Assembly (NCBI GenBank): GCA_028684065.1
Contig: JAQUGO010000012.1
Location: forward strand, 1 to 55,796
Source: Sulfurospirillaceae bacterium
GTDB taxonomy: Bacteria; Campylobacterota; Campylobacteria; Campylobacterales; Sulfurospirillaceae
Reading direction: 5' to 3'
Length of the DNA: 55,796 nucleotides
Shown here: positions 31,539-35,926 of the stretch, in pieces
Position numbering within the stretch: position 1 is the stretch's first letter
Layout: the number at the start of each line of letters is the position of its first letter
The notes under the pieces: generated by a model
Seen by the model: only the letters and a program-made list of their open reading frames with translations
What the model was told of the DNA's origin: nothing
The model's database searches: none
Translations under genes and position numbers: made by a program

Positions 31539-31907
31539 ATGGTTGTTTTTCGTGTAGATAAAGAGAAAAATATTTTATTTATGAGCATAACAGGAATAGT
31601 CCCGAAAGATAAAATGTTAGACTCCATTGAATTGTTTGCTAAAAAATGTACTGAATTAAAAGAATATTTCACTATTATCAATGATATGTCTCTTTTGAAA
31701 ATTTCTTCAGACCATGATTTTGATATTTTGTCAAAAACAACTTTTATGATGAAAGAAAAATTTTTAATAGGGAAAATCATACGAATAATCGGAACTAATC
31801 ATTCTTATGAAATAAAACTCAAACATTTTGATGCACACTATCACATGGAAAATATCTTTTATGTTTCAAATAAAAAAAGTGCATTCGAAACTCTTTATAA
31901 GCTCTAA
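31539..31907 (+). CDS. Small protein of unknown function, possibly STAS/SpoIIAA-like
   Basis: A 122-residue cytoplasmic protein. The pattern of a short strand pair (FRVDKEKNILFMSITGIV), a helix (KDKMLDSIELFAKKC), a strand ending in IINDMS, a second helix and a basic strand (GKIIRIIG) resembles STAS/SpoIIAA-like folds. There is no clear sequence signature, so this is a fold guess only. It stands alone, divergent from pdxJ and convergent with the Sel1-like gene. Confidence 0.6.
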   Translation: MVVFRVDKEKNILFMSITGIVPKDKMLDSIELFAKKCTELKEYFTIINDMSLLKISSDHDFDILSKTTFMMKEKFLIGKIIRIIGTNHSYEIKLKHFDAHYHMENIFYVSNKKSAFETLYKL

Positions 31908-32430: not shown

Positions 32431-33561
32431 TTATTGAGGAATGTGAATAAAAGTAATATCAAAAATTCCTTTTTCAAAACCATGATGACATGCAAAACAG
32501 TTTGATTTATCTTTTATCAAAGGAGATTTAAACGTTTCATTACTAATACGATGATGAACCCTGCGCCAATAAGGCGATTTTGTAATTGATAACGGTCTCA
32601 TTTCACCTAATGATTCTAATGTTTTAAAAGATAATTTACGGCTTGAATATTCTGCACTATGGGCAAGAACATACGATTTTATATCCAATTGCATCTCTTT
32701 AGAAATATTGTTTTCTGTGATTTTTTCTCCAAAATGATTTTCCAAACCATCAAACAGTTTGACCCATGATTCTTTTGGAAGCATATATGGTGGATAGTTT
32801 TTATGACATTTACCACATTTTTCGTAAAAAGCAGGACTTTCTGTTTCAAAATCAATAGGTTCGAAACGACTTTGAGTTAAACTATTTTCAGGTTGAGATA
32901 CAATGAAATAAAAAGAATATACGACTAAGGCAATCACACTATACACAAAAATATTTCGAATAGCCGATACTTTTGTATCAATTCCATCACATTGTTTATA
33001 ACCAGTCACCATTGCAAATACCATATTTGTTCTATGATAGAATTGCTCAATAAGAACGCCTATGACATGAATAAAAGCCCATAATAAGAGACTATATGAA
33101 GTATATTGATGTATTGTTAATAATACATTCGAGTAGTGATAATATAAAGGGTTTAGAAAACGTGTTATACCACAGCCTTCTTGAACGCCATACAGGAGAA
33201 TACCTCCGAAGACGATTAGATAACCTATAAAAAGAACTATCAATGTAAACCAACTTGATGCTGGATTGTGTCCTGGATGAATTTTACGCCATCTATTGTT
33301 TACTTTTTCTTGAAAATAGTGTTTTAGACTACTCGCATGTAACATAAATGTATTAAAGGTAGCATATTGTGGCCCCAAAAAACCCCAAATGATACGAAAT
33401 GTGAGAACAATGCCAAAAGTATATCCAAAGGCTATATGGTAGATGAATTTATCATGAAAAAAAGAAGTTAGAAAAGAGGCAAGAAAAGAGATTACAATAA
33501 TCCAATGAATCATGCGCGTACATAAAGGCCATACAAAAACATAACCAAATTTTCTGTTCAT
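32431..33561 (-). CDS. Cytochrome b561-type membrane protein fused to a dihaem cytochrome c (DHC) domain
   Basis: A 376-residue fusion. Residues 1-225 form a cytochrome b561/Ni-hydrogenase-b-like domain with five membrane segments (about 15-35, 40-60, 104-125, 150-172, 202-222) and candidate haem-b ligands H19, H42, H151 and H165; HPGHNPASSW precedes the third helix as in that family. After the fifth helix the chain should be periplasmic, and it carries two haem-c sites, C249-x-x-C-H and C355-x-x-C-H. The segment KCHKNYPPYMLPKESW and the late HHRIS region match the DHC family, normally a separate protein. Likely role: transfer of electrons between periplasmic cytochromes and the quinone pool. 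The cytochrome c and SQR-like genes lie directly upstream. Confidence 0.85.
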   Translation of the reverse strand: MNRKFGYVFVWPLCTRMIHWIIVISFLASFLTSFFHDKFIYHIAFGYTFGIVLTFRIIWGFLGPQYATFNTFMLHASSLKHYFQEKVNNRWRKIHPGHNPASSWFTLIVLFIGYLIVFGGILLYGVQEGCGITRFLNPLYYHYSNVLLTIHQYTSYSLLLWAFIHVIGVLIEQFYHRTNMVFAMVTGYKQCDGIDTKVSAIRNIFVYSVIALVVYSFYFIVSQPENSLTQSRFEPIDFETESPAFYEKCGKCHKNYPPYMLPKESWVKLFDGLENHFGEKITENNISKEMQLDIKSYVLAHSAEYSSRKLSFKTLESLGEMRPLSITKSPYWRRVHHRISNETFKSPLIKDKSNCFACHHGFEKGIFDITFIHIPQ

Positions 33562-33620
33562 TAGATTCTTTTCTTATGTTTTCTGATGTTGAAACATCAG
33601 AAAACATAATACATAAATTA

Positions 33621-33995
33621 TTATTTATTTATATTGAAAGTATTGAAAATATAATTAGCCATAGCTTTTATATCGTAATCATAACCTTTTTCAGTGAGTT
33701 TTTGCATATTATGCTCCATCACGTCGTGCTCAGTTGCTGTTGATTGACCAAGTCCACCATTTTTAATATCAAAAAGATCTAACTCAAGTTCTTGAACTAT
33801 TTTTTTATTAATGGCAGGTGCTTTCTTTTCTGCCTTTCCTTCACCTTTATCTCCATGACAATGCGAACATGTCGCTTTATAAACTTCAGCTGGAGTATAT
33901 TTATAAGTCACTGTATTGCTTTTGGGTGAATCGCCACATCCACTTAATGCTATAAGGGCTACAGCAGACGACACAATTAATATTAATTTTTTCAT
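33621..33995 (-). CDS. Monohaem cytochrome c lipoprotein
   Basis: A 124-residue exported protein. The signal peptide ends in the lipobox ALSGC (Cys20), so it would be anchored to a membrane on its periplasmic side. One haem site CSHCH follows a typical c553-like helix (PAEVYKATCSHCHGDKGEG), and EHNMQKLTEKGYDYDIKAMANYI provides the expected Met axial ligand and C-terminal helix. It lies 36 bases after the SQR-like gene and 59 bases before the cytochrome b-DHC gene, a natural electron carrier between them. Confidence 0.85.
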   Translation of the reverse strand: MKKLILIVSSAVALIALSGCGDSPKSNTVTYKYTPAEVYKATCSHCHGDKGEGKAEKKAPAINKKIVQELELDLFDIKNGGLGQSTATEHDVMEHNMQKLTEKGYDYDIKAMANYIFNTFNINK

Positions 33996-34031
33996 TCTTT
34001 TATCCTTTATCTCTTATTCATACTTATTATA

Positions 34032-35501
34032 TTAAGCTCGACCAGCAAGCATGCCGTAAATTGTCATAGGTTTGAGTGCATATACCTTGAGTAACCACCA
34101 TATCCAACGCTCTTGTGTAGGGTCAAGTGGAAATGATGGAGTAGGTTTAGCTGTCCAATCAAATTCTGCCAACATAACTGTTCCAATACTGGTAATCAGT
34201 GGACAAACAGTATAGCCATGGTAAGCCGAAGGAAGTTTTTCTTTTTTCTCCATAACGGCAATAAGATTATCAGCCAAAACACCATATTGTTTACGTATAC
34301 TTCCACCTGTTTTTCCCATTGGCAGGGCGGCAACATCTCCTAAAGAAAAAATATTTTTATATTTGACATGTTGTAATGTCTCTTGTGCGACGGGTACCCA
34401 TCCTTTAGAAGAGCCTATTGGTGATTTGCCAACAATATCAGAAGCTTTTTGAGGTGGTGTTATATGAATAAAATCATATTTGCGCTCTTCCTCTTTAGAC
34501 ATTTGAACCATGGTGTACTCTTTTAAATCCTCATCATACTCACCTTTTTCAAGCCATGTTTTTTCAAAAGTTGCCACTTTTTTATCGGTATCAATAGCGA
34601 CTAAATTGGTTTTGTATTCCCATTTGAAATTTCGTGCTTTAAATTGTGCCAAAATAGCTTCATGATATTCAGTTACACCAAACATTTTGCTACCACTTGG
34701 ACAAAAAATCAAATCAACTTTATCTCTCACACCTGCTTCTACCAATCGAGCATGGGTCAAATACATGATTTTTTTAGGTGCACCACCACATTTGATAGGA
34801 GTACTCGGATCTGTAAAATAAGCTTGCAATTTTTCAGTCCCAGTATGTTTTTTTGCTTTTTCAATTAATTCTTGAATACCTTTATAGGTATCAACAGCAC
34901 CATCTGCAAAGTAGATAGAATAAACACCATTTTTACCTACCTTTTGGCGAACAATAGTATTTTCACCAGCAGAAGTAATTTCGCCTTCTAATCCTTTTAT
35001 TCCACCATAGTTCAACATTAAGCCTGTTGCAACCACCAAATAATCATACGTAATATCTTCACCACTTGAAATTTTTACTTTATTATTGGTTGGATCAAAG
35101 CTAACAACTGAATCTTTGATTAATTTAACACCTTTAGGCAAAAAATCTTCTATTTTATATTCAATGTCACTTTTTTGCCACACACCGCCCCCAATAAGTG
35201 TCTGTCCTGGTTGATATGACACTGATTTTGGATTAGGTTCTATAATAGTTACATCTGGATTTGATAAACTATTGCATAATTTTGCAGCTGTAGACACGCC
35301 CGCAAGTCCACCTCCAACAATCACTATTTTGCCTGTGGCACTCGATGAAGCTTTAGCTTGTGTTGTGCCTATTGAACCAGCTAAAACACTCGCCGCTACA
35401 GGGGATGCAGCTAAAAATTTCATTGCTTCACGACGTGACATTTTACCTTCGTATTTTTCAATCTCACCGAGTAATTCTTCAATGATTTTGTCTGATTTCA
35501 T
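34032..35501 (-). CDS. Tat-exported sulfide:quinone oxidoreductase-like flavoprotein (type II motifs)
   Basis: A 489-residue FAD protein. The start at 35501 has AAGGA 7 bases upstream; M21 (35441) is an alternative. MSRREAMKFLAAS (21-33) is a twin-arginine signal, predicting export of the folded flavoprotein. FAD binding is at IVIVGGGLAGVSTAAKLC. The two redox cysteines lie in TPIKCGGAPKKIMYL (C238) and GYTVCPLITSIGTVMLAEFDW (C433), which match human SQOR-type enzymes. A Trp-rich terminal helix (ERWIWWLLKVYAL) should dock on the membrane. Sulfide oxidation is the likely reaction; the acceptor may be quinone or the neighbouring cytochrome. Flavocytochrome c sulfide dehydrogenase is the alternative. 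Confidence 0.82.
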   Translation of the reverse strand: MKSDKIIEELLGEIEKYEGKMSRREAMKFLAASPVAASVLAGSIGTTQAKASSSATGKIVIVGGGLAGVSTAAKLCNSLSNPDVTIIEPNPKSVSYQPGQTLIGGGVWQKSDIEYKIEDFLPKGVKLIKDSVVSFDPTNNKVKISSGEDITYDYLVVATGLMLNYGGIKGLEGEITSAGENTIVRQKVGKNGVYSIYFADGAVDTYKGIQELIEKAKKHTGTEKLQAYFTDPSTPIKCGGAPKKIMYLTHARLVEAGVRDKVDLIFCPSGSKMFGVTEYHEAILAQFKARNFKWEYKTNLVAIDTDKKVATFEKTWLEKGEYDEDLKEYTMVQMSKEEERKYDFIHITPPQKASDIVGKSPIGSSKGWVPVAQETLQHVKYKNIFSLGDVAALPMGKTGGSIRKQYGVLADNLIAVMEKKEKLPSAYHGYTVCPLITSIGTVMLAEFDWTAKPTPSFPLDPTQERWIWWLLKVYALKPMTIYGMLAGRA

Positions 35502-35704: not shown

Positions 35705-35926
35705 ATGGTACAAAAAGAATTATTAATTTTCGCCTTAGTGTTACTTGTATTATCCCTTGGTATGCATATGAACCAGTGGATAGCACATCCTATTCTTCAC
35801 CTTCAACACTTAAGCGAACACAAAATGCCATACCATCCACTACTTTATACATTTATTTGTTATCTTGCCATAGGTTTTTTTCGTTTATTGATTCATTTTG
35901 TCTCTAAAATTTTTCGGTCTCATTAA
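35705..35926 (+). CDS. Small two-helix membrane protein
   Basis: A 73-residue protein with two hydrophobic segments (about 5-22 and 47-66) separated by a His-rich linker (MHMNQWIAHPILHLQHLSEHKM). GAAGG lies about 8 bases before the ATG. The next gene starts 6 bases after its stop, so it is probably co-transcribed with the Ppx/GppA gene. I do not recognise a family; the histidines suggest, without proof, metal or haem contact. Confidence 0.6.
   Translation: MVQKELLIFALVLLVLSLGMHMNQWIAHPILHLQHLSEHKMPYHPLLYTFICYLAIGFFRLLIHFVSKIFRSH

Follow-up and report, generated by a model that had tools for sequence, protein, structure and literature searches.

The three genes and their products

Do three consecutive genes for an exported SQR, a small cytochrome c and a membrane cytochrome b with a dihaem tail constitute one sulfide-linked electron-transfer module, and in which direction would electrons pass through it? 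The question arises from a locus in the window, a stretch of 55,796 nucleotides that is contig C1 of a Sulfurospirillaceae genome of 2.67 Mb (99.9% complete). An earlier note had proposed, from the letters of the sequence, such a module at the periplasmic side or in the membrane. By translation and Pfam analysis, we confirmed the positions it had given for the three genes, their location on the minus strand and the gaps of 36 and 59 bases between them. The products also have the character that it had assigned to them: a flavoprotein with a Tat signal and both SQR cysteine motifs, an anchored monohaem cytochrome c, and a membrane cytochrome b with a dihaem tail.

The first gene (34032-35501, minus strand) encodes a Tat-exported, type II-like SQR. 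Its start was assigned to the ATG at 35501; a longer ORF beginning with GTG at 35786 was rejected because it overlaps the conserved divergent gene of a 73-aa protein with two TM segments (35705-35926, plus strand), homologues of which adjoin SQR in many Campylobacterota. The protein matched Pyr_redox_2 (2e-14). Its best relative of solved structure is human SQOR (8e-72), which aligned over the full length with both redox cysteines matching (TPIKC/TPVKC and GYTVC/GYTSC); in a Foldseek search with the predicted model, human SQOR came first (7e-40) and FCSD later (3e-22). The AF2 model has low confidence over the C-terminal 40 residues and does not settle the quinone site. Fold and the two redox cysteines are common to type II SQRs such as human SQOR, and the Tat signal is shared with those of Epsilonproteobacteria, in which the motif was present in all proteins examined (PMC4584964). 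The SQR of the trio differs from these known enzymes in that genes for a cytochrome c and for a CytB/mDHC fusion stably follow its own.

A gene for an exported sulfide flavoprotein next to a cytochrome c gene is likewise the arrangement of FccAB, and the flavoprotein gene of the trio does adjoin one for a cytochrome c. However, a true flavocytochrome c was rejected because domain, cysteine and fold all spoke against it: the flavoprotein is SQOR-like; the FCSD flavin-binding domain (PF09242) was absent from its Pfam scan and found in 0/24 genomes, in a search whose controls likewise matched nowhere; and none of its only four cysteines (Cys57, 219, 248 and 414) lies near the presumed position, close to the N-terminal fold, of the residue for covalent FAD.

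The second gene (33621-33995, minus strand) encodes a monohaem cytochrome c lipoprotein with the haem motif CSHCH, the lipobox LSGC and a Cytochrom_C domain (PF00034, 2.6e-6). Since H90, M93, H95 and M112 are all invariant in 47 relatives, as is the haem motif, the sixth ligand and the potential are not deducible from sequence.

The third gene (32431-33561, minus strand) encodes a CytB/mDHC fusion, a cytochrome b of the FdnI/Ni-hydrogenase type with a C-terminal dihaem cytochrome c domain (PF01292 and PF09626). Pfam placed DHC (4e-29) and Ni_hydr_CYTB (2e-15) within one protein, and Foldseek retrieved 2fw5 (DHC) and 1kqf_C; the parts are thus an FdnI-like cytochrome b and a DHC as in Rhodobacter and Shewanella. 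In the AF2 model (pLDDT 88.8), the membrane part has five long helices, and five TM segments were predicted. The invariant His19, 42, 151 and 165 fit an arrangement of two b haems; the likewise conserved CXXCH motifs (249 and 355), His276 and His336 fit a bis-His DHC. The histidines in the cytochrome b part have the 14-residue spacing of FdnI. Lysines and arginines are located in loops 63-99 and 176-199; prediction puts these positively charged loops on the cytoplasmic side, which would place the DHC in the periplasm. Fold, His spacing and presumably the quinone role are common to the fusion, FdnI and the cytochrome b of Ni-Fe hydrogenase, but the fusion possesses its own dihaem c domain and no such dehydrogenase adjoins it. 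The sequences themselves show the domains, the haem sites, the signals for Tat export and lipid anchoring and the predicted topology, as well as the conserved association described below.

We rejected the idea that the fusion originated at this locus. According to the earlier note, known SHP-DHC-cytochrome b clusters carry DHC as a separate protein; this proved incorrect, as CytB/mDHC chimeras have been published from SHP operons, S. deleyianum among them, with a proposed direction from quinol to CytB to mDHC (PMC2909971), and the genome under study has one of its own. On contig C5 (L075:4014-5996), the genes for SHP (DUF1924), a soluble DHC and this other CytB/mDHC chimera are followed by one for a response regulator. 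The fusion of the trio, in which a cytochrome b561-type domain is joined to a DHC with two CXXCH motifs, has the identical two-domain architecture but no SHP gene or soluble DHC beside it; its clade is distinct from that of the SHP operons, at about 31-35% identity, and is associated with SQR instead. Among 397 genomes of the phylum, the two clades were cleanly separated (E <=1e-155 versus >=1e-116), with the SQR type present in 27 genomes. In the paralogous SHP-type clade (18 loci), SHP was found in 15/18 and SQR in 0/18.

Conservation of the trio in Campylobacterota

Within Sulfurospirillum, the SQR-type fusion and SQR are adjacent on one strand in 22/24 genomes, the present one included; of the other two, one has its SQR where a contig ends, and the second is an incomplete genome that lacks both. 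Wherever both end genes lie on one contig, the trio is adjacent. Adjacency could have been inherited by chance, the three products having no joint function: the genes flanking the trio are also syntenic in the genus, so that within-genus adjacency alone is weak evidence. In other families, however, the flanks differ (pyrG-recJ, for example) and the order SQR-monohaem cytochrome c-fusion is kept (L097, L100, L105, L111, L113, L114, L116 and L118). Pairwise distances of the three proteins correlate with r of 0.69-0.74, to which shared species history contributes. Chance inheritance is therefore hardly credible.

The earlier note had called for a search of Campylobacterota genomes for co-occurrence of the three genes. 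We collected 61 loci of the SQR-type fusion clade, leaving out L207, which has no scorable fusion ORF. SQR lies upstream in 53 of them, five end at a contig edge, and three (Hydrogenimonas and relatives) have PsrAB-NrfD instead. Hence, SQR precedes the fusion in 53/56 loci with sufficient upstream sequence, among varied flanking genes. In one further exception (L276, G370:C1:2784000-2796500), the fusion follows pyrG-recJ and is itself followed by psrA-psrB-nrfD-cytochrome c; the usual cytochrome c is missing there, and SQR is about 40 kb away. Along the SQR tree, the state of the module switches at least 8 times. Clearly, the three genes are neighbours in related genomes, and the association is not due to chance: the twin arginine, Cys219 and Cys414 of SQR are invariant in 77/77 relatives, and the adjacency recurs across families with different flanks.

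Hairpin between the second and third genes

The 59-base gap between the cytochrome c and cytochrome b genes contains a hairpin (33574-33609, minus strand) with a 16-pair stem (-19.9 kcal/mol, z -5.2) and no U-tract. Its pairs covary across the genus, with 28 compensatory cells compared to 8.3 in shuffles and 3 to 11 in slid controls, and other families have terminator-like stems in the corresponding gap. Promoter and terminator scans yielded no more than in shuffles. The conserved hairpin makes simple co-transcription, or equal co-expression, of the trio doubtful; expression of gene 3 may be weaker than that of genes 1 and 2.

Association with Psr genes

Downstream of the trio, 31/51 related loci with at least 1.5 kb of sequence on that side encode a PsrA/PhsA-group molybdopterin protein with a Tat signal, usually joined by a 187-aa four-cluster ferredoxin (e.g. 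L164:6307-9272, L159, L188 and L202). Periplasmic sulfur chemistry is common to the trio and the polysulfide/thiosulfate reductases PsrABC/PhsABC, and psrAB trail the trio in many relatives; the trio loci of Sulfurospirillum differ in having no Psr gene or molybdopterin subunit beside them. Because the fusion occurs with psr genes, sometimes without SQR, it appears to be tied to periplasmic sulfide/polysulfide chemistry generally, not to SQR alone.

SQR and cytochrome c might accordingly work as a pair similar to FccB/FccA that feeds terminal oxidases, with the fusion belonging to a polysulfide reductase and being a neighbour by operon history. The frequent downstream PsrA and the hairpin or terminator-like break before the fusion gene agree with such a division, as do genera g3-g5, in which SQR is accompanied by a two-haem cytochrome c without the fusion, and the Hydrogenimonas-type loci and G370, in which the fusion is found with PsrABC and no SQR. 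Nevertheless, Sulfurospirillum retains the trio without adjoining Psr genes, and the two psrABC sets of the present genome lie on another contig. We regard this division as decidedly unlikely.

Direction of electron transfer

From these features we infer the substrates, acceptor, flow direction and complex formation of the trio, which likely serves electron transfer with sulfide or polysulfide in the periplasm. Other SQRs transfer electrons to quinone themselves. In the reading that we tentatively prefer, the Tat-exported type II SQR would work on the periplasmic surface of the inner membrane, oxidising sulfide to per- or polysulfide, and would most likely hand the electrons to menaquinone itself. 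The fusion, with its FdnI-type, bis-His dihaem b part and a periplasmic DHC, would form together with the anchored cytochrome c a haem branch between the menaquinone pool and periplasmic partners. By analogy with the SHP operons, this branch would most likely run from menaquinol through haem b and mDHC to cytochrome c.

The C-terminus of SQR is alike in loci with and without cytochromes among the 77 relatives, and neither cytochrome is encoded downstream in 51/77 sampled SQRs, which suggests that SQR functions without them; a special quinone-free SQR inside the module was rejected, no C-terminal difference being seen. In the presumed S. deleyianum 5175T genome (G014, L078:6469-6808), a frameshift lies between residues 67 and 74 of the trio's cytochrome c, and SQR and the fusion are intact. 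Growth of S. deleyianum on sulfide and nitrate has been reported, as judged from the title of Eisenmann 1995 cited in PMC3035281. If it oxidises sulfide with the SQR of the trio, the cytochrome c would be dispensable there. The unchanged SQR and the frameshift make an obligatory path via this cytochrome c doubtful and favour direct reduction of menaquinone.

Two observations point the other way. Wherever any cytochrome occurs, fusion-free loci included (L069-L074), SQR is accompanied most constantly by cytochrome c, which suggests direct transfer from SQR to cytochrome c. In addition, Rhodobacter-type DHCs are described as low-potential in a title cited in PMC8838479, and with a low-potential DHC, transfer from sulfide into quinone fits better than the reverse. 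Electrons might then pass from SQR through cytochrome c, mDHC, the periplasmic-side haem b and the cytoplasmic-side haem b to menaquinone. Formate dehydrogenase-N feeds menaquinone through FdnI, and the FdnI fold, the four haem-b histidines and the predicted topology of the cytochrome b part would fit this route, as does the gene order maintained in the testable loci. On the other hand, SQR retains its usual C-terminus, the cytochrome c is frameshifted in G014, and most sampled type II SQRs of Campylobacterota are without such neighbours. We consider this haem route possible, if doubtful, and favour direct reduction of menaquinone by SQR over it. If true, the haem route would move charge across the membrane during sulfide oxidation and change the accounting of energy yield from sulfide in Campylobacterota. 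That the trio is an energy-conserving periplasmic sulfide dehydrogenase, in which electrons reach menaquinone on the cytoplasmic side via cytochrome c, DHC and the FdnI-like cytochrome b and build up membrane potential, seems unlikely.

Electrons could also flow in reverse, from menaquinol via CytB/mDHC and cytochrome c to the flavoprotein, which would reduce polysulfide. The association with Psr genes is compatible with this, and SQRs in sulfur reduction are discussed in PMC10045233. Every sequence feature of the flavoprotein, however, is that of a sulfide-oxidising SQR, and reverse flow is highly improbable. Polysulfide reduction from menaquinol is moreover uphill without energy input.

Candidate sulfide oxidase of Sulfurospirillum

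For sulfide oxidation by Sulfurospirillum, a bidirectional polysulfide reductase of the Psr type has been suggested as a possible enzyme (PMC4794192). The SQR of the trio is the sole SQR-like match in most genomes of the genus, that of presumed S. deleyianum included, and is therefore a direct candidate for the sulfide oxidase and for knock-out. The trio is real and conserved and consists of known parts; in the open-access literature, we found no description of an SQR-cytochrome c-CytB/mDHC cluster. Also new are the PsrAB-type genes often appended in relatives, the covarying hairpin, the SQR unchanged with or without cytochromes, and the frameshifted cytochrome c gene.

Three minor observations were made. 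A second SQR-like protein, without Tat, is encoded in the same genome (L278:7097-8551, contig C12) and in a few relatives within the genus; from a reading of its sequence only, it would be type VI. In the divergently encoded 73-aa protein, for an orthologue of which Pfam gave no match, histidines look invariant. Finally, a 122-aa ORF without a Pfam match is present at 31539-31907 on the plus strand, and homologue-like ORFs occupy the same place in some relatives (e.g. L081:2758-3141).
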